Source of the DNA: Rhodospirillaceae bacterium
GTDB taxonomy: Bacteria; Pseudomonadota; Alphaproteobacteria; Rhodospirillales; JABHCV01
Reading direction: 5' to 3'
Length of the DNA stretch: 36,845 bases
NCBI GenBank assembly: GCA_014382375.1
Contig: JACNJU010000029.1
Location: forward strand, 1-36,845
The notes under the pieces are model-generated. The model was not told the origin of the DNA and searched no databases. It saw only the letters and a program-made list of their open reading frames with translations. Shown here piece after piece: positions 3,374-9,922 of the stretch; the stretch's first letter is position 1, and every line of letters starts with the position of its first letter. The position numbers and the translations under genes are program-made.

Positions 3374-4738
3374 ATGAGCTTCACCGTTGCCATCGTCGGT
3401 CGGCCCAATGTCGGCAAATCGACCCTTTTTAACCGTCTGGTTGGAAAGCGGCTTGCTATTGTCGATGACACGCCGGGTGTCACCCGTGACCGTCGGCAGG
3501 GCGAGGGTGGAATTTCTGACCTGAAATTTTCAGTAATTGATACCGCTGGTCTCGAAGACGCCATGGATGACTCGCTGGAAGCCCGCATGCGCAATCAGAC
3601 AACAATGGCCCTAGGGGAAGCCGACGTCGCCCTGATGCTGATCGACGCCCGCGCCGGGGTAACGCCGCTCGATAGTCATTTTGGCAAATGGATACGCCAG
3701 CAGGGCGTGCCGCTGATTCTGATCGCCAACAAGTGTGAAGGAAAAGCCGGAATGCCGGGCCTTGCAGAAGCATACGGGTTGGGCCTGGGTGAGCCACTGG
3801 CATTTTCTGCCGAACACGGTGAAGGCCTGAGCGAGCTTTACGACGCCCTGTTACCCTACGCCGGTGAGCGTGATGACAGCGACTTTGAGGGTGGCGATGA
3901 TTACGTCGATGAAGATGGCGATGATGGCACCCGCCCCATCAGTCTTGCTATCGTCGGTCGTCCCAACGTCGGCAAATCGACACTGGTCAACAAATTGCTT
4001 GGCGAGGAACGGATGCTGACCGGACCCGAGGCTGGTATCACGCGTGATTCGATTACCACCAACTGGAACTTCCAGGGCCGCGAAATCAGGCTGGTCGATA
4101 CTGCGGGTCTGCGTAAAAAAGCCCGTGTCACAGAAAAGGTCGAAAGCCTGTCGACGGGTGATTCCATTCGCAGCATTAAATTCGCCCAGGTCGTGGTTCT
4201 GGTCCTCGATAGCGCCGACATGATGGAAAAACAGGACCTGACCATCGCCCGCCGCGTCGTCGATGAAGGTCGGGTTCTGGTCATTGCCGTCAACAAATGG
4301 GATCTGGTGAAAGACAGCAAAATAACCCTGGCCAAACTAACCGACCGCTTGCAGACTTCGCTCCCGCAAGCCCGCGGCATCCCGATTATTACCATGTCGG
4401 CAAAAACCGGGCGCGGCATTGACCGCCTGTTGCCTGCGGTCCTGAATATTTACGAGCTTTGGAACAAACGCATTTCTACCGGGGCGTTGAACCGCTGGCT
4501 CGATGGCATTCTCGCCCACCACCCGCCACCACTTTCCAGCGGCAAGCGCATCAAAATACGCTACATGACCCAGGCAAAAACCCGGCCCCCCACGTTCGTC
4601 GTCTTCGCCAGTAGACCTACGGGACTTCCTGAATCATACAACCGTTATCTGGTCAACGCCCTGCGCGAAGATTTCGACCTGCCCGGCATTCCCATCCGTC
4701 TGCATACGAAAAAGGGCAAAAACCCATACGCGGATTGA
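3374..4738 (+). CDS. der: Ribosome-assembly GTPase Der (EngA)
   Basis: A 454-residue protein with two tandem GTPase domains and a C-terminal KH-like domain. Each G domain starts with the P-loop GRPNVGKS (near residues 8-15 and 194-201) and has DTAGL G3 motifs; the G4 motifs are NKCE and NKWD. An acidic linker ([18 protein letters not shown]) joins the two domains. Der is essential for 50S ribosomal subunit assembly. The start is the ATG at 3374, 13 bases after the bamB stop; the open frame continues upstream inside bamB, but that part is not Der-like. It closes the yfgM-bamB-der unit. No terminator is obvious after it. Confidence 0.96.
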
Positions 4739-4844
4739 GGCTCCGGAATTGACCCCGTACAGACATTTGGCAAATTGGATTGATCGCAACTTTACTGCTT
4801 TCACATCATTTTTTTGCGCTGGGAATATTCTGCTGTAGAACGTC

Positions 4845-5003
4845 CTATTTCTCAGTATTTAACTGTGGCGCAAGCGATTCCGGGGCAAGCTTATCAGGGT
4901 TGCCCCCACCAAGACGTTGCAACTTTTCAAAATAGAGATAGATCACAGGCGTCAGGAACAAAGTAATAACCTGGGAGACTGCCAGTCCGCCCACAGCGGT
5001 TTT
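4845..5003 (-). pseudogene. 3' remnant of an RND efflux transporter
   Basis: On the minus strand an open frame from about 5003 to the TAG at 4845-4847 encodes roughly 50 residues that read like the extreme C-terminus of an RND (AcrB/MdtB-type) inner membrane pump: GGLAVSQVITLFLTPVIYL followed by a charged tail ending LNTEK. This is the last transmembrane helix and cytoplasmic tail of the family. Nothing upstream in this frame resembles the remaining ~1000 residues. Similarity begins within about 15 bases of the stop codon of the neighbouring small aor-cluster gene, so the pump gene was cut by a deletion or by arrival of the aor operon. There is no start codon or ribosome site. Confidence 0.8.
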
Positions 5004-5016
5004 ATTTTTTCGGGAC

Positions 5017-5307
5017 CTAGCCGCCGCCGCGCTGAAAGGCGCGGTCGAAGGCTTTTATTGTTTTTGTGATTTCGGCCTCGCCGTACCCCTTGAACGTCAA
5101 GGTGACGCAGGTGACCGGCAGGACAAACAGGGCGATGCGGCGCTCGCCTTGTTCTGAAATGGAAATTACCAGGCTTTTGTCATCACCTTCCAGGATCACC
5201 CGGTCGGTCTGCTTGCTGAAATCTTCTCCCAGGACACGGGGAATGTTGCGAAAGAATTCGGTGTGGGAGATACCCATTTCCTTTTCAATGACAACATCAC
5301 TGCCCAT
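5017..5307 (-). CDS. Unknown small protein, last gene of aor operon
   Basis: A 96-residue protein with no recognised domain. It begins three bases after the MoaD-like gene ends, with GGGGGTTAAAAG before the ATG, so it is translated from the same operon. It has no signal peptide or membrane helix. Predicted character is alternating beta and alpha: ISHTEFFRNIPRVLG, then hydrophobic strands (SLVISISEQG, RRIALFVLPVTCVTL) and a C-terminal helix ending in RGGG. Five-gene aldehyde oxidoreductase clusters of this order are known from betaproteobacteria such as Aromatoleum, where the fifth gene also has no settled role; whether this is its homologue I cannot show. Cofactor insertion or maturation is a guess from context only. 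Confidence 0.75.
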   Translation of the reverse strand: MGSDVVIEKEMGISHTEFFRNIPRVLGEDFSKQTDRVILEGDDKSLVISISEQGERRIALFVLPVTCVTLTFKGYGEAEITKTIKAFDRAFQRGGG

Positions 5308-5310
5308 CTT

Positions 5311-5562
5311 TTAACCCCCCGCCACTGGCGGCCACACGGCAAGGGCGTCGCCATCTTCGAGAACCTTTCCGGCACGTTCGCTGGGTGCCACATAATGGCC
5401 ATTGACGAGGACAAGATGGCAATGTTCCAGCGGCACGTCGTGGGCGACAAGCACTCTTTCAAGAGTGTCTCCTGAATCGACGTCGATTTCCACCTCGCCG
5501 CGCACCGCGTGATCGGGAAGATGTTTGCCCAGTGCCGCGTAGAGCTTGAGAGTGATTTTCAC
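5311..5562 (-). CDS. aorD: MoaD/ThiS-like sulfur carrier (AorD-like)
   Basis: An 83-residue beta-grasp protein of the MoaD/ThiS family ending in the diagnostic Gly-Gly (PPVAGG), which in this family is adenylated and thiocarboxylated to donate sulfur for the pterin dithiolene. Further family marks are VKITLKLYAALGKHLP at the start and LVLVNGHYV / LEDGDALAVWPPV in the second half. In the operon it probably serves synthesis of the tungsten-bispterin cofactor of AorB. I chose the GTG at 5562, five bases after the aorC stop, with GAGG eight bases upstream; the frame extends to 5601, but that would overlap aorC and adds residues not seen in MoaD proteins. Confidence 0.87.
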   Translation of the reverse strand: MKITLKLYAALGKHLPDHAVRGEVEIDVDSGDTLERVLVAHDVPLEHCHLVLVNGHYVAPSERAGKVLEDGDALAVWPPVAGG

Positions 5563-5566
5563 AGAA

Positions 5567-6805
5567 CTAGCCTCGTGTACAATCGATATAGGCTTCGACA
5601 AGAAGATTGGGATCGGCCATCAGGCGTTCTTTCCACGAGGCCAGATTGACGCGGGTCTGGATCAGCCCGCGAATAACGCCGATGCCATCGGTGCGGCCAA
5701 TCAACAAGGCACCAACCAACTGATCGCCATCAAAATTAAGCAGTGTGTAGCGAAAGTTCCTGGTATCTAGTTTGACGGCGCTCTCGCCGCCTTCCGCACC
5801 CTGCCAAAGACCGAAGGAACACGAAATAAGGCCCAGGGTATCGAGCACATTCATATTCAGGCTGCCGCGGTAATCGACTTGTTTTCCGGCCATGTTAAGG
5901 GCGGCGACACGGCCATGTTCAACGCCCGTCGGCTGGACCGCATGGACGGACCACTCACCGGTGGAGAAATCAGGACCCTGAGCGACATCGCCCGCAGCGT
6001 AAATATTATCGAGGCTGGATTTAAGATGATTGTCGACCTTGATACCGGCCTCCATCTCAACCCCGCTGCCCTCAAGAAAATCCGCATTGGGGCGAACCCC
6101 GGTTGCAACCACGACCAAATCGGCTTTGATGACGTCGCCGTTATCCACATTGACGGCAAGTTTACCATCCGCCTCGTCAACGGACGTGACCCTTGCCGAC
6201 GTCAACACGTTGACCCCCTTGGCGATACACCAGTCCTTGATCATGTTGCCGGCGTTCTGGTCCATCATCCTGGGAACCATGCGATCCTCGGCCTCAACGA
6301 CGCTGAGGTTAGCCCCCGACAGGGCCAGCGCCTCCATAATGATGCAGCCGATGAAACCGGCCCCCATCAGGACAACATCAACCCCTTCCCCGGCAATAGC
6401 CGCAATATTGCGGGCATCTTCCAGGGTCCAGCAATGATGAATGTTTGGACGGTCCAGTCCCTCGATTGGCGGCTTGATCGGATGGGAACCGGTCGCCACC
6501 AGCATTTTATCGAAGGCAACGGTTTCGCCTGAATCCAGGGTCAGGGTGTTGTTGTCAAGGCTGACGCCCGTCGCCCGGGCCTGAATGTACTTGATACCGA
6601 GATTTTCAAAATGATTTTCGGCTTTACGCAGGTAAACCCCTTCTTCGGGCACTTTGCCAATCAAAAAATAGGGGATCGCCATGCGCCCATACGGCGGATC
6701 TTTTTCCCCGTCAACCAGTACCACCGTGGCATCAGGATCTGCCGTGCGCAAGGTTTCCGCTGCGGTGACGCCGGATGGTCCGGCCCCAACAATGACGTAT
6801 TGCAT
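5567..6805 (-). CDS. aorC: AOR-associated FAD/NAD oxidoreductase (AorC-like)
   Basis: A 412-residue pyridine nucleotide-disulfide family flavoprotein. It has an FAD-binding motif GAGPSG (residues 7-12), an ATG box near residue 105, an NAD-binding motif GAGFIG (148-153), a second ATGVRPN (235-240) and the FAD-closing AAGD (270-273). In the known Aromatoleum-type enzyme this subunit passes electrons between the iron-sulfur chain of AorA/AorB and NAD. No redox-active CxxxxC is present, as expected for NADH-ferredoxin-reductase-type members. The start at 6805 is set by GGGGAG seven bases upstream; the frame extends to 6841, but that lies inside the hairpin before the gene. It is separated from aorB by 79 bases. 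Confidence 0.9.
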   Translation of the reverse strand: MQYVIVGAGPSGVTAAETLRTADPDATVVLVDGEKDPPYGRMAIPYFLIGKVPEEGVYLRKAENHFENLGIKYIQARATGVSLDNNTLTLDSGETVAFDKMLVATGSHPIKPPIEGLDRPNIHHCWTLEDARNIAAIAGEGVDVVLMGAGFIGCIIMEALALSGANLSVVEAEDRMVPRMMDQNAGNMIKDWCIAKGVNVLTSARVTSVDEADGKLAVNVDNGDVIKADLVVVATGVRPNADFLEGSGVEMEAGIKVDNHLKSSLDNIYAAGDVAQGPDFSTGEWSVHAVQPTGVEHGRVAALNMAGKQVDYRGSLNMNVLDTLGLISCSFGLWQGAEGGESAVKLDTRNFRYTLLNFDGDQLVGALLIGRTDGIGVIRGLIQTRVNLASWKERLMADPNLLVEAYIDCTRG

Positions 6806-6820
6806 TTGTACTCCCCAAGA

Positions 6821-6867
6821 ATAGAAAACCCCACACCCCAAAGCTTATTAAGCAAGGGGGTGTGGGG
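6821..6867 (-). terminator. Intercistronic hairpin between aorB and aorC
   Basis: Positions 6829-6839 (CCCCACACCCC) and 6857-6867 (GGGGTGTGGGG) are perfect 11-bp complements, with an inner short stem GCTT/AAGC in the 17-base loop. Read on the minus strand the stem is followed at once by TTTTCTAT, so it has the form of an intrinsic terminator with a weak U-run. It lies after the aorB stop and before the aorC ribosome site, inside what otherwise looks like one operon. It probably terminates part of the transcripts and/or protects the aorAB message. Whether it terminates is inference; the inverted repeat is seen directly. Confidence 0.8.
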
Positions 6868-6884
6868 AACTCTTTTAACGGCCT

Positions 6885-8732
6885 CTACAGTTCGAGGCGG
6901 CTGAGTGTTTCGTTTGAAGGAACACCTTCAGGTGTCCAGCCACGAAGCTCGTAGTATTCGGGCAGCATCTTGCCCAACTCGCTGACCTTGCCTTTCGCCG
7001 GACCAGTCTTGGCCGCGTCTTTTAGCAGTCGTGCGGGCAAGGTGTCGTCGGCTGCGGTGAAGCCCGCCTCCATATTGAACTTGCGCTCCAGATTCCAGAT
7101 TCGCTCGCCAATTTCCACCAACGTTTCGGACGACCACTCGCCATCCAGATCGGCATTGATCATCGGCGCAACGTCGTCCAGGGTCAACGCGAATGACGTG
7201 AAGATGCAGATGCCGGCGGCATCAAAAGCGGCCGTCGCATCCTGAAACGCCATAACCAAACCGGCCTTGCCATCAGACGTCAGTGGATCGGTCTTTTCCG
7301 GGATACCCAGAATTTCAGACGCCACCGTGTAGCTGCGCAAGTGACAAGCACCACGGTTAGACGTCGCATAGGTCAGTCCCATACCCTGGATACCGCGCGG
7401 GTCATAGGCCGGGAACTCCTGGCTTTTAACCGTCATTGAAAGTTCAGGATGACCGTATTTTTCGGTCATACGACGCGAGCCCTGGCCGATCTCCTTGCCA
7501 AAGCCTTCACCCAGACCGGTCTGATCGCAGATTTTGCACAGCGCTTCGGCAGAGCCGAACTCAAGGGCCAAACCACCGGTATCGGCATCTGTAATCGCGC
7601 CGATCTTATACAGTTCCATCGCCGCGGCGACGGTCGAACCCAGAGAAATCGGGTCCATGCCGTACTCGTTGCAGACGTAGTTGCAATAGGTTAGTGCTTC
7701 AAGATCCTGAACGCCTGTCGCCGCACCCAAGGCCCATGCGGCTTCGTACTCGAGACCACCCTCGTTGCCATGGTACTTCGGCTGGCCCGCGACCGAGAAG
7801 TGATTCGGGTCCATTTGCGAGCGACGCTGACACGAGATTGGGCAACCAAAACACGCCGCGTTGGAGACCAGGTTGGCCTTGCCATCGCTTTCACGCGGCT
7901 CCGCCATGGCTTCACCACCAATTTTTGATGCGCCATCGAATTGCACATCGTTGGAATTGTGAGTCGGCAGTGCACCGGTTTCGTTAATCACATTCATCAG
8001 AACCTGGGTGCCATAGGTCGGCAAGCCTTCGCCCGTCACCGGGTTGTCGGCCAGAATCTGGTTACACGCACCGGTGGCCTGCATGAAAGCCATCGGATCG
8101 CCAACCTGGGTGCCCGTCGTTCCGCGACAGGAAACCGCCTTAAGGTTCTTCGATCCCATAACCGCGCCAACGCCGGAACGGCCAGCGGCCCGATCCTTGT
8201 CGTTAATAACGCCGGCAAACAAAACCTGAGATTCGCCAGCCTGACCGATGGAGGCGCAACGGATGTCGTTGTCGCCGCAAGCTTCACGGAGCATATCTTC
8301 GGTGTCCCACACCGATTTACCCCACATCGCTGAGGCGTCTTTCAGTTCAGCCTGATCGTTTTTGATATCCAGATAAACCGGACCTGCCGATTTGCCTTCA
8401 AAGATAACCATATCCCATCCGGCGTTCTTCAATTCGGCACCAAAAAAGCCGCCGGAATTGGAGCACGCAATGGCCCCTGTAAGCGGTCCCTTGGTGACAA
8501 CGGTCCAGCGACCGGATGTTGGGGCAGCAGTACCGGTCAACGGACCGGTAGCAAAAATCAGCTTATTGTCAGCCGACAGAGGGTCAACTTTGGGGTCGCA
8601 TTCTTCGACGTAATATTTGGTCGCAAGGCCGCGCGAACCAAGGTATTTTTTGGCCCACTCCGTATTCAACGGTTCGCTTTTGCACGTGCCGTCAGTCAGA
8701 TTCACTCTTAAAACATTGTTTGTCCAAGCCAT
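6885..8732 (-). CDS. aorB: Tungsten-type aldehyde oxidoreductase, catalytic subunit
   Basis: A 615-residue enzyme of the aldehyde:ferredoxin oxidoreductase family, which holds a tungsten (or molybdenum) bis-pyranopterin and one [4Fe-4S] cluster and interconverts aldehydes and carboxylic acids. The cluster ligands are visible as Cys294-x2-Cys297-x3-Cys301 (ACFGCPISC) and Cys509 in DAAGIC, which is also one pterin motif; the other is EYGMD at 356-360. The active-site segment GLEYE (327-330) carries the expected glutamate. Family length is ~605-620. GGGAGG lies upstream of the ATG. The N-terminus lacks a signal peptide, so it is cytoplasmic. With aorA and aorC it matches the bacterial AorABC enzymes (order A-B-C-D). 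The substrate is not predictable from sequence; the neighbouring CoA ligase suggests an acid that is later activated. Confidence 0.93.
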   Translation of the reverse strand: MAWTNNVLRVNLTDGTCKSEPLNTEWAKKYLGSRGLATKYYVEECDPKVDPLSADNKLIFATGPLTGTAAPTSGRWTVVTKGPLTGAIACSNSGGFFGAELKNAGWDMVIFEGKSAGPVYLDIKNDQAELKDASAMWGKSVWDTEDMLREACGDNDIRCASIGQAGESQVLFAGVINDKDRAAGRSGVGAVMGSKNLKAVSCRGTTGTQVGDPMAFMQATGACNQILADNPVTGEGLPTYGTQVLMNVINETGALPTHNSNDVQFDGASKIGGEAMAEPRESDGKANLVSNAACFGCPISCQRRSQMDPNHFSVAGQPKYHGNEGGLEYEAAWALGAATGVQDLEALTYCNYVCNEYGMDPISLGSTVAAAMELYKIGAITDADTGGLALEFGSAEALCKICDQTGLGEGFGKEIGQGSRRMTEKYGHPELSMTVKSQEFPAYDPRGIQGMGLTYATSNRGACHLRSYTVASEILGIPEKTDPLTSDGKAGLVMAFQDATAAFDAAGICIFTSFALTLDDVAPMINADLDGEWSSETLVEIGERIWNLERKFNMEAGFTAADDTLPARLLKDAAKTGPAKGKVSELGKMLPEYYELRGWTPEGVPSNETLSRLEL

Positions 8733-8773
8733 TATAATCCTCCCTAATTGAAGCCAGTATTTTTACTTGTTGG

Positions 8774-9253
8774 TTAACTCGTCGCCTGATTTCCAGCGTC
8801 GGTTTTTTCAGCCCAGTGGCGCATTTTGTCCATGCCTGCCTGATCCGCCTCGATAAACGTCAGGGCCGGGGTTGGGCAAACCTTGACGCAATCAGGATCA
8901 CCCCCGCACAAGTCGCATTTGTCCACTTTGGTGGATTCGGAGTTATAATTGATGGTGCCGAACGGACAGGCGATGGTGCAAACCTTGCAGCCTACGCACA
9001 GTGTTGCCGATACTTCTTTGGCGCCGGTTGCGGCGTTTACCGAAATCGCGTCAACAGGACAGGCCTGCAGGCACCAGGCGTCAGCACATTGGGTGCAGAC
9101 ATAAGGCACATTGCGTCCCGTATCCTTAAAATTGAAAATTTTAATGCGAGATTTAGATGGATTGAAAACCCCCTCATGATGGTAACTACATGCCATTTCG
9201 CACTGATGACAACTGGTACATTTACCAGCATCAATGTGGAGGACTTTAACCAT
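8774..9253 (-). CDS. aorA: Four-cluster ferredoxin subunit of aldehyde oxidoreductase
   Basis: A 159-residue polyferredoxin of the DMSO-reductase beta-subunit type with 16 cysteines in four cluster motifs: Cys12/15/18/22, Cys53/56/61/65, Cys86/89/92/96 and Cys113/116/122/126. All four can hold [4Fe-4S] clusters; no cysteine is missing. It is the small electron-transfer subunit that in AorAB-type enzymes passes electrons between AorB and AorC. First gene of the operon; GGGAG lies eight bases before the ATG. The upstream region holds a good -10 (TATAAT read on the minus strand at 9306-9301), a small hairpin and an Fnr-like box. The start is unambiguous because the frame is closed just upstream. 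Confidence 0.92.
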   Translation of the reverse strand: MVKVLHIDAGKCTSCHQCEMACSYHHEGVFNPSKSRIKIFNFKDTGRNVPYVCTQCADAWCLQACPVDAISVNAATGAKEVSATLCVGCKVCTIACPFGTINYNSESTKVDKCDLCGGDPDCVKVCPTPALTFIEADQAGMDKMRHWAEKTDAGNQATS

Positions 9254-9283
9254 TCGAAACTCTCCCAGTGGGTATTAAAACGC

Positions 9284-9306
9284 GCCCGTTACTTTCGGGC
9301 ATTATA
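9284..9306 (-). promoter_or_regulatory. aor operon -10 box and leader hairpin
   Basis: Read on the minus strand, 9306-9301 is a perfect TATAAT; no good -35 lies 16-18 bases upstream (GTTAAA is the nearest), which is typical of activator-dependent promoters. Immediately downstream 9300-9284 forms a 5-bp hairpin GCCCG-N7-CGGGC in the leader. Promoter activity is inferred. Confidence 0.45.
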
Positions 9307-9409
9307 GCTGGTATTTAGCACTCTTTAACACCCTCTACGCAACCACAAATTCTATGGTGTTATTCGCAGTGCGGAAAAGTCTATAAATGCACGGGTAAAA
9401 TACCGTTTT

Positions 9410-9423
9410 TTGATATTAATCAG
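9410..9423. promoter_or_regulatory. Fnr/Anr-like box between the two divergent operons
   Basis: TTGAT-ATTA-ATCAG matches nine of the ten defined positions of the Fnr consensus TTGAT-N4-ATCAA. It lies 23 bases before the GNAT start and 156 bases before aorA. Read toward aorA, a weak -10 (TTTATA, 9387-9382) sits exactly 22 bases past the box, the geometry of a class II Fnr promoter. Read toward the plus-strand operon it would overlap the likely core promoter. Which operon it controls is not settled. Confidence 0.55.
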
Positions 9424-9445
9424 GACATTTTCGGCATCAATTACC

Positions 9446-9922
9446 ATGACAATAAGAAACGCCCTCCCCAAAGACCTGGCCAACATCCTTGAACTCAATC
9501 AGCAGGCCCTACCCCACGTCAATTCCCTAAGAATTGGTGATTTGGAGAGATTTCTTGAACAGGCCGCCTATTTCAAGATTATTGGTGATCTTGACGGTTT
9601 CCTGATCGGCCTCAGACCCGGACTTGATTACAGCAGCGACAATTACCGCTGGTTCTCTGAGGCCTTTGAGGACTTCTTTTACATTGATCGCATCATTATT
9701 GACGAGCGTGCCCGTGGCCAGGGGCTCGGCAGTCTGCTTTACAAGGACATTATTGAAACCGCCCGCGCGCACACGCCGCGCCTGACGTGTGAAGTCAATT
9801 CCCGGCCACCGAACCCACACTCAATGGCTTTCCATCAGCGCTTTGGCTTTGCCCCCGTCGGCACCCAACAAACCGAAGGCGGAACCAAGGAAGTGACCCT
9901 GTTGTCACTTGATCTGACATGA
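9446..9922 (+). CDS. GNAT-family acetyltransferase
   Basis: A 158-residue GNAT protein of the COG3818-like type. The N-terminus MTIRNALPKDLANILELN is the usual first strand and helix, and the acetyl-CoA pyrophosphate loop is in DERARGQGLGSLLY (R-x2-G-x-G pattern, near residues 91-104). The C-terminal strand-helix FHQRFGFAPVGTQ is also typical. I chose the ATG at 9446 rather than an upstream in-frame codon at 9410, because the latter starts inside the Fnr-like box. The gene overlaps the next one by four bases (ATGA), so the two are co-translated. Its target is unknown; co-operonic GNAT enzymes can acetylate acyl-CoA ligases, which is only a possibility here. Confidence 0.85.
   Translation: MTIRNALPKDLANILELNQQALPHVNSLRIGDLERFLEQAAYFKIIGDLDGFLIGLRPGLDYSSDNYRWFSEAFEDFFYIDRIIIDERARGQGLGSLLYKDIIETARAHTPRLTCEVNSRPPNPHSMAFHQRFGFAPVGTQQTEGGTKEVTLLSLDLT

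Follow-up and report, generated by a model that had tools for sequence, protein, structure and literature searches.

A probable class III tungsten aldehyde oxidoreductase operon of an alphaproteobacterium, with a terminator-like hairpin between aorB and aorC and a candidate maturation protein, AorE

The closest described relative of the locus considered here is AORAa, the tungsten aldehyde oxidoreductase (AOR) of Aromatoleum aromaticum EbN1, with which it shares the gene order A-B-C-D-E, the subunits, 17 of 19 mapped AorB residues and the C-terminal segment of AorA (PMC6365974, PMC10413684, PMC9295118). Among class III oxidoreductases one characterised enzyme has been counted (PMC13328260), and the Moorella enzyme was thought to be a second one with three subunits (PMC6365974). 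AOR-MoaD clusters were already published in 2006 by Iyer, Burroughs and Aravind, who described neighbourhoods of AOR with MoaD, a pyridine disulfide oxidoreductase and a 4Fe-S ferredoxin (PMC1779556). These include an alphaproteobacterium, since the proteobacterial list of that paper names 'Mmag', which we take to be Magnetospirillum magnetotacticum. Tungsten AORs and PQQ-dependent alcohol oxidation have also been linked before (PMC5023235, PMC12510462). All statements on these papers refer to the portions of them that were covered.

The window, that is the whole stretch of 36,845 nt analysed here from a Rhodospirillaceae bacterium, contains five open genes in the order aorA-aorB-aorC-aorD-aorE on the minus strand, from 9253 to 5017. 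A sequence-only reading of this DNA had given the same outer limits, which coincide exactly with the start of aorA and the end of aorE. aorA (8774-9253, minus strand) encodes a polyferredoxin-like small subunit of 159 aa with 16 cysteines and four [4Fe-4S] motifs, and aorB (6885-8732, minus strand) the catalytic W-bis-MPT subunit of 615 aa, composed of AFOR_N and AFOR_C. The FAD/NAD-binding subunit AorC (5567-6805, minus strand; 412 aa) starts at an ATG behind GGGGAG. aorD (5311-5562, minus strand) has a GTG start and encodes a MoaD/ThiS-like sulfur carrier of 83 aa that ends in PPVAGG, and aorE (5017-5307, minus strand) encodes an operon-specific accessory protein of 96 aa that ends in RGGG. 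The program-made open reading frames are overlong relative to the likely genes for aorC (from a TTG at 6841) and aorD (from a TTG at 5601).

The best solved relatives of AorA, AorB and AorC are three chains of one entry, 8c0z, the structure of the Aromatoleum enzyme (8c0z_C at 7.3e-68, 8c0z_A at 1.6e-278 and 8c0z_E at 6.7e-124, respectively). This bears out the earlier identification of a tungsten-type AOR with the AorABC order, as do the AFOR domain matches of AorB (E 5.6e-138 and 1.8e-80). AorC carries a Pyr_redox_2 domain (4.8e-57) and two GxGxxG motifs. These sequence comparisons make the operon orthologous to AORAa, which belongs to class III of the tungsten oxidoreductases, and in itself it is one further copy of a known enzyme. 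It resembles the class III oxidoreductases of clade 87 in being composed of WorL, WorS and WorN (PMC13328260). The window operon differs from that of Aromatoleum in its host, in its neighbours and in a T-tailed aorB/aorC hairpin that is not present in this form in the two Aromatoleum loci of the set. Neither this hairpin nor AorE was found in the covered part of the 2006 paper (PMC1779556).

The alignment of AorA to 8c0z reaches through the C-terminal segment GMDKMRHWAEKTDA, a correspondence to the C-terminal helix at the level of sequence. The segment joins protomers in the Aromatoleum filament (PMC10413684), and a tail of the form M..[WFYL] occurs in 68 of 78 AorA proteins, a set that includes the second copy of the host genome and one Azospirillum. 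For AorB, the 19 residues named in PMC10413684 were mapped by reading the alignment to 8c0z, and 17 of these cofactor and active-site residues are identical; the exceptions are Val510, which is Ile, and His484, which is Leu. Both His484 and His464 are named near the tungsten (PMC10413684). Since position 464 is His in window AorB and in 9mqx, whereas position 484 is Thr in 9mqx, we take His464 rather than His484 for the histidine conserved in the family. Thus, the earlier statement that all cofactor residues are intact is correct provided that 484 is misprinted or dispensable.

In an AorB tree, a quick one of 87 rows with SH-aLRT support only, long outgroup branches and no Pyrococcus AOR, the window protein falls, as the sequence-only reading would have it, with the Aromatoleum/Thauera branch, that is the bacterial AOR branch. 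A phmmer search with AorB ranks 8c0z (928.9 bits) above 9mqx (687.5) and 1aor (607.2). Window AorB is 68% identical to AorB of A. anaerobium and A. buckelii (EbN1 lies outside the set of loci) and closest among named proteins to that of a Magnetovibrio MAG (84%), with which the alphaproteobacterial host agrees. The earlier description of the known bacterial AorABC systems as few was overstated, as the order ABCDE recurs in 62 of the 80 named loci that lie closest in sequence. A rare or horizontally odd operon was considered and is ruled out by this shared order and by the unremarkable AorB tree. Alphaproteobacterial titles account for nine of the 80 loci, and the AORAa type is present in 14 of 385 sampled genomes of the host's class.

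The genes for tungstate or molybdate uptake and for pterin synthesis that the operon had been predicted to need are in the genome. tupA (PF12849 at 6.0e-45) is adjoined by tupC and a cut tupB, modA (PF13531 at 5.1e-48) by modBC, moaA scores 352 bits against a TIGR02666 cut-off of 284, and moeA, moaE and mobB were recognised at another locus by sequence reading. Similar genes flank the operon elsewhere: TupA/TupB in 30, MoaA/MoeB/MoeA in 25 and Ped-type PQQ markers in 21 of the 80 named loci, where 20 unrelated window proteins used as a control match 0-4 loci each. The term 'PQQ' is absent from the main text of PMC13328260. The host genome also contains a second aorABCD (C34, L006) inside a PQQ alcohol-dehydrogenase cluster, which the sequence-only reading, made without database tools, could not reveal.

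By analogy with the published work on Aromatoleum, AorB would use a W-bis-pterin centre to oxidise aldehydes to acids, and the electrons would pass from its [4Fe-4S] cluster through the four clusters of AorA to the FAD in AorC and on to NAD+. AorAB protomers would stack via the C-terminal helix of AorA into a short wire with one AorC as a cap, and AorD and AorE, as a sulfur carrier and a dedicated accessory protein with a terminal GGG, would help to assemble the tungsten cofactor or to insert it. Downstream of aorB, the hairpin may let only part of transcription (or of stable mRNA) reach aorCDE, so that AorAB would outnumber the cap and the maturation factors. We are fairly confident of this scheme as a whole, comprising a NAD-reducing class III enzyme, a capped AorAB wire, maturation by AorD and AorE and an AorAB excess driven by the hairpin.

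AorD, with ThiS and Ub-Mut7C matches and a terminal GG on its ThiS/MoaD domain, is the MoaD-like sulfur carrier that had been recognised in the operon, and all 69 named relatives end in AGG. The fifth gene, by contrast, is not the unknown it was taken for: it is the aorE that has been described as part of aorABCDE (PMC6365974, PMC9295118). A profile finds AorE in 66 of the 80 named loci, and all 66 proteins end in [RK]GGG; the gene was not detected at the Aromatoleum anaerobium locus. Within the host's class, AorE occurs in 14 of 14 genomes with an AORAa-type AorB, in none of the eight that have only other AORs and in none of the 363 without. In the literature covered AorD and AorE were tested only as a pair. 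Specific activity rose from 4.5 to 85 U/mg when aorDE was supplied together with tungstate, yet without added tungstate the aorABCDE product contained less tungsten than that of aorABC (0.39 versus 1.06) while its activity was higher (PMC9295118), indicating that the role of the two proteins is not a simple one.

The predicted structure of AorE (pLDDT 88) has the element order E-H-E-E-E-E-H, a strand and a helix followed by four strands and a helix. Its fold matches are to PR-10/START-like domains, to kinase-associated domains and to 1v8c, a MoaD-related protein of Thermus thermophilus, in which the matching part is the C-terminal domain and not that of MoaD. The top Foldseek and VIA matches (KA1, PYL, PR-10) were set aside as a common arrangement. 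The match to the 1v8c domain probably holds (Foldseek probability 1.00, TM 0.61 over the query; VIA Z 8.0, 3.0 Å over 81 residues), although its sequence support is weak and many unrelated folds score equally or higher. 1v8c shares the terminal RGGG, and its MoaD domain precedes this domain as AorD precedes AorE in the window. DUF1952, which is presumably this C-terminal domain, matches three of 67 AorE members with E values of 1 or less, the best being 0.0045 and window AorE not among them, and the 67-member AorE profile reaches 1v8c at a weak E of 0.26, whereas a 14-row profile did not find it at E up to 10. Against plasmids, AorE gave two weak matches only (E 2 and 3) and the Thermus fragment none.

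The hairpin in the aorB/aorC gap (6819-6870, minus strand), which the sequence-only reading had missed, consists of the stem arms CCCCACACCCC and GGGGTGTGGGG, in which 6867-6857 pairs with 6839-6829, followed by TTTTCTATTC. None of 200 shuffles reaches the folding energy of the gap, which is -37.7 kcal/mol (z -4.0). Of the named loci, 18 have an aorB-aorC gap below 40 nt, and of the 56 with a gap of at least 40 nt, 38 have a hairpin of terminator form and 18 do not qualify. Cultured relatives with the operon and the T-tailed hairpin include Motiliproteus sediminis and Azohydromonas lata. With both loci of the host included, 40 of 57 such gaps, which come from related genomes and are non-independent, have the hairpin against 7.1 expected from shuffles, while their reverse complements have it in nine of 57 (expected 4.4). 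Control regions yield few: 3/77 in the 90 nt upstream of aorA, 1/78 after aorA, 1/82 within aorB and 9/66 after aorE. It is also present in eight of a further nine genomes of the class, a set with no member close to the named loci. When the T rule is dropped, hairpins of -12 kcal/mol are common in every region tested (45-77 of 66-82; 57/57 in the gap), so the signal depends on the T tail. In one group four of nine stem pairs are changed on both sides; further pair types (six) were no higher than shuffles in the covariation test. A looser first count (-10 kcal/mol, any gap length) of 46/76, against 3/78 for the generally short aorA-aorB gaps (median 16 nt), is superseded by the controlled one. 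A terminator scan found eight sites against 6.6 expected, and the aorB-aorC hairpin, whose loop exceeds the limit of 8, is not among them. A promoter scan of 4700-9600 found four sites (3.4 expected), and an FNR-like site upstream of aorA was rejected as too weak (five window matches, 1.6 expected). Literature searches aimed at the hairpin found no published report of it in the texts covered, and neither PMC10413684 nor PMC6365974 has the words 'terminator', 'hairpin', 'stem-loop' or 'intergenic' in its main text.

Might the enzyme instead, as the sequence-only reading hinted, run mainly in reverse and use low-potential electrons or H2 to reduce acids to aldehydes? AORAa does reduce acids and accept electrons from H2 in vitro (PMC9295118, PMC10413684). 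However, benzoate was reduced very slowly, and only with Ti(III) citrate at low pH (PMC6365974), and the operons of relatives often lie beside alcohol-oxidising PQQ genes, which would yield aldehydes, so that we regard this direction as highly improbable. Another alternative is that the second aorABCD of the host, the one in the PQQ cluster, is the working copy and the window operon a redundant or decaying duplicate. Indeed, the two AorB proteins are sisters, 88% identical, that split later than the Magnetovibrio branch. However, the five window frames are open, the hairpin is present and nearly all residues are kept. Moreover, in the second copy AorD ends in GGKK and no aorE follows, so that aorE and an AorD with a terminal GG belong to the window copy alone; decay, if any, would be in the second. 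A redundant or decaying duplicate is thus a most unlikely description of the window operon.

For AorE, the wording 'resembling MoaD' in PMC6365974 implies a second sulfur carrier of the beta-grasp type, and the terminal GGG, like the GG of MoaD and ThiS, and the position behind AorD would suit one. Yet neither window AorE nor any of the 67 members matches the ThiS/MoaD family at E up to 1, and the predicted element order and fold matches do not suggest a beta-grasp, which makes such a carrier improbable. A stronger contender, although still rather unlikely in our estimate, is that the hairpin is no terminator but stabilises or processes mRNA as a 3' end barrier for the aorAB message. The same effect on the subunit ratio would then arise post-transcriptionally. 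Hairpins of this stabilising kind are used in puf-type operons, and strong gap hairpins without T runs are found in both Aromatoleum loci and Azoarcus Aa7, all among the non-qualifying gaps, and in two examined Thauera loci; the terminator form is therefore not seen in the one group of species whose filament is known. It is the T-rich tail on the sense side, so much more frequent than in the reverse complement, that argues against a mere barrier and for attenuation, which we infer from the present analysis. Attenuation at the hairpin could give the excess of AorAB over AorC that an (AB)nC filament needs.

A further proposal, tentative and somewhat doubtful, is that a conserved, direction-specific attenuator between aorB and aorC sets the AorAB:AorC ratio and with it the length of the nanowire, and that AorE, a small protein of alpha/beta type whose GGG tail is invariant and which is fused to MoaD in Thermus, is a novel type of maturation protein for the cofactor that works with AorD for this enzyme class only and in this host acts in trans on both AorABC enzymes. 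What AorE in particular does in this proposal is our own suggestion. That the operon is linked to PQQ alcohol dehydrogenases suggests a physiological role of the enzyme in alcohol oxidation. Strict co-occurrence and the GGG tail make AorE worth targeting in studies of how the tungsten cofactor is inserted, which may be useful for heterologous production. Finally, since the make-up Aor(AB)nC is known and the hairpin sits between the repeated and the capping subunit, it offers a testable answer to how n may be set.

The five consecutive minus-strand genes running from 9253 to 5017 form a known kind of operon, which the sequence-only reading described correctly as a tungsten-type aldehyde oxidoreductase (AOR) operon. 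They are aorA (159 aa; Fer4 domains), aorB (615 aa; AFOR_N and AFOR_C), aorC (412 aa from the ATG at 6805; Pyr_redox_2), aorD (83 aa from the GTG at 5562; ThiS/Ub-Mut7C) and lastly aorE (96 aa), in which no Pfam domain was found at E 0.001. The three chains of the Aromatoleum enzyme AORAa (8c0z) are the closest solved relatives of AorA, AorB and AorC, AorB scoring 928.9 bits against 8c0z, 687.5 against 9mqx, 607.2 against Pyrococcus AOR (1aor), 267.2 against 1b25 and 179.4 against benzoyl-CoA reductase (4z3w). That all cofactor residues are intact stands for 17 of the 19 residues named in PMC10413684, identical in the alignment with 8c0z, and His464 is retained, but Ile replaces Val510 and Leu replaces His484. 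AorA contains 16 cysteines, as well as a C-terminal segment corresponding to the one described as making the Aromatoleum filament helix (PMC10413684).

The idea that such operons are a rarity of few bacteria has to be given up. Scanning named genomes with AorB gave 423 relatives, and all counts of named loci here rest on the best 80 of these. The order ABCDE occurs in 62 of the 80, the others being ABC (6), AB (5), BCDE (3), ABCD (2), BCD (1) and DEAB (1). aorE was undetected in 14 of these 80 loci, nine of which stop at most 105 bases past the last aor gene found (L031, L032, L038, L048, L071, L076, L082, L086, L091) and five of which extend further (L040, L060, L075, L080, L081). Nine of the best 80 are alphaproteobacterial by title (L023, L035, L036, L037, L039, L040, L045, L066, L071), and a class sample including our genome holds AorB relatives (E <=1e-50) in 22 of 385 genomes. 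Fourteen of the 22 reach 61% identity, although in G276 this match spans 167 residues only. The AorB tree, a quick, short search with SH-aLRT support only and unsure outgroup placements, joins the window protein to its paralogue on contig C34 (96), then to Magnetovibrio (100), in a branch that also contains Aromatoleum, Thauera and Geothrix rather than unrelated AOR-fold proteins. PMC1779556 had already listed clusters of AOR and MoaD that also contain a pyridine disulfide oxidoreductase and a ferredoxin, naming 'Mmag' among the alpha- to epsilonproteobacteria carrying them.

The window aorB-aorC gap contains a perfect 11-bp stem (6867-6857 paired with 6839-6829) followed by TTTTCTATTC, and folds at -37.7 kcal/mol (z -4.0); in the C34 gap (z -3.2) the outer stem is similar and the T run longer. 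Under a rule requiring a single hairpin of -12 kcal/mol or lower within 90 nt, followed by 10 bases of which 5 or more are T, and with eight dinucleotide shuffles per gap as control, 40 of 57 aorB-aorC gaps of at least 40 nt pass (our two included) against 7.1 from shuffles, while their reverse complements give 9 of 57 (4.4). Elsewhere the counts are 3/77 (2.2) before aorA, 1/78 (1.0) after aorA, 1/82 (3.0) inside aorB and 9/66 (4.1) after aorE. Since hairpins without the T rule occur everywhere, the signal rests on the T tail and its direction. Among the best 80 named loci, 38 of 56 gaps of at least 40 nt pass; 18 further loci have shorter gaps, and in six others no AorC is visible. A second set, nine class-sample genomes with AorB above 60%, aorC in view and gaps of at least 40 nt, own copies excluded, yields 8 of 9 as read off the table; it is disjoint from the named set, since none of its loci exceeds 80.5% identity to a named one. 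By the same table, class-sample loci with AorB at 54-56% and such gaps give 1 of 4. Thirteen hairpins of one group, chosen for a shared GCGG stem, a choice that favours structure, have 95.7% of cells paired with both sides changing in 4 of 9 pairs, against at most 69% and two such pairs in slid alignments; their pair-type count does not exceed shuffles.

From the end of the hairpin to aorC the median distance is 22 nt (range 11-84), leaving little space for a promoter in between. A partial terminator or mRNA barrier would leave AorAB in excess, and the described complexes AorABC, (AB)2C, (AB)3C and (AB)4C each hold one AorC (PMC10413684). Counting against the terminator form, the aorB-aorC hairpins of both Aromatoleum loci and of Azoarcus Aa7 are strong but carry no T runs. 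The main texts of PMC10413684 and PMC6365974 mention no such element, and literature searches aimed at it found no report. In G034 (L012, L132), aorD-aorE seem to come straight after aorA-aorB, with aorC missing from its usual place, and the hairpin is still found behind aorB; this is possibly a two-subunit variant with a maturation pair. In G261 (L013, L133), aorC was not found in the fetched flanks, about 3 kb between lying outside them.

The fifth gene, previously called unknown, is AorE of the published aorABCDE operon, where AorD and AorE are described as resembling MoaD (PMC6365974). PMC9295118 gives specific activities (U/mg) of 4.5 with ABC alone and 16 with ABCDE, rising to 85 when ABCDE is combined with tungstate; the corresponding W values are 1.06, 0.39 and 1.52. 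A profile of 14 AorE sequences matches 66 of the best 80 named loci, including Aromatoleum buckelii (EbN1 is not among the loci); all 66 end in [RK]GGG, and AGG closes each of the 69 AorD sequences read. The 385 class genomes include 14 with AorE, exactly those with AORAa-type AorB, and AorE is absent from the eight with only other AORs; Fisher values for this co-occurrence are not probabilities because genomes share ancestry. In a phylum sample including our genome it occurs in 7 of 398. In Aromatoleum anaerobium (L081, 11400-11600) no aorE could be detected in the stretch from aorD to the tup permease; a congener (L096) has one. The AorE AlphaFold model (pLDDT 88) begins with a strand and a helix, continues with four strands and closes with a long helix that runs into the tail. 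Foldseek matches it to the Thermus MoaD-related protein 1v8c (probability 1.00, query TM 0.61, rank 42, E 0.08), and VIA gives Z 8.0 for the 1v8c C-terminal domain, many other folds being equal or higher. The sequence link is weak, in the same direction, and both proteins end in RGGG; one further profile search with AorE did not recover 1v8c. It is likely that AorE belongs to one family with the C-terminal half of the Thermus protein, in which AorD and AorE would be fused.

Our genome (3.3 Mb, 205 contigs, the window being C18; 99.37% complete) matches the AOR family in four places: the window; C34, where a second aorABCD has an AorB 88% identical to the window's; C41, where a lone AOR (56-57%) is accompanied by a MoaD-like gene; and C126, where a fragment (27%) is truncated at the contig edge. 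The last (L008, 1-2686) stops 9 bases short of gpmI, a phosphoglycerate mutase gene identified by reading the sequence, and has no NCBIfam match at 1e-8; we would guess a glyceraldehyde-3-phosphate enzyme. Uptake and pterin genes are present: tupA (family model) with tupC and an edge-cut tupB on L115, modA (family model) with modBC on L116, moaA (family model) on L117, and moeA, moaE and mobB on L008, those without a family model being assigned by reading. Neither outcome that the sequence-only reading had set as refuting its view, an AorB placed among unrelated proteins or a genome lacking such genes, was therefore observed. A plasmid of Azospirillum thermophilum (L123; NZ_CP029357.1, 94527-103895) carries an operon that starts with an AOR, an AorA-like Fe-S protein and MoaD, continuing with complex-I-like membrane subunits and a NuoD-like gene, with hypA adjoining. 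The NuoD-like gene is annotated as a nickel-dependent hydrogenase large subunit, has RVCGIC and DPCISC motifs, and best matches NuoD in NCBIfam, under its cut-off. On this one plasmid read, the system is possibly a membrane-bound aldehyde:hydrogen lyase; similar AORs lie on four other Azospirillum plasmids. Eight loci of a mostly gammaproteobacterial group (L024, L025, L027-L030, L033, L034) have aorBCDE then moaA, with moeB and a GNAT acetyltransferase following on the opposite strand. In the window, too, a GNAT gene (9410-9922) is oriented divergently from aorA. At 9410-9423, upstream of aorA, there is an FNR-like sequence with a single mismatch; the window has 5 matches of this kind where 1.6 would be expected.

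The C34 operon sits within a periplasmic alcohol-oxidation cluster comprising a PQQ alcohol dehydrogenase (TIGR03075), a quinoprotein relay hydrolase, a SoxYZ-like carrier, cytochrome c-550 PedF and a PQQ-linked ABC system (TIGR03863, TIGR03866, TIGR03864, PedC). The dehydrogenase has WDYDG at the position where lanthanide enzymes have a second Asp. Ped-type markers lie near AorB in 21 of the best 80 named loci, TupA/TupB in 30 and MoaA/MoeB/MoeA in 25, against 0 to 4 for each of 20 unrelated window proteins; no PQQ or Ped-type gene was seen beside the window operon among the frames read. The Pseudomonas homologue of the ABC system is described as needed for low-lanthanide growth (PMC6839425), tungsten AOR and xoxF3 as higher on methanol (PMC5023235), and a proposed pentane pathway points to the same AOR-PQQ role (PMC12510462). 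We infer that AORAa-type enzymes often oxidise aldehydes from PQQ alcohol dehydrogenases. The C34 AorD (L006, 6265-6527) ends in GGKK, a tail seen in none of the 69 named relatives read, and no aorE lies between it and pedF. It is possible that tail and missing gene are errors in the draft genome; if real, the tail should block MoaD-like function unless trimmed. Given this tail and the lack of aorE there, the window AorD and AorE may serve both AorABC enzymes. Attention is due to the hairpin, to AorE as a family and to the second copy rather than to the presence of an AOR in an alphaproteobacterium.
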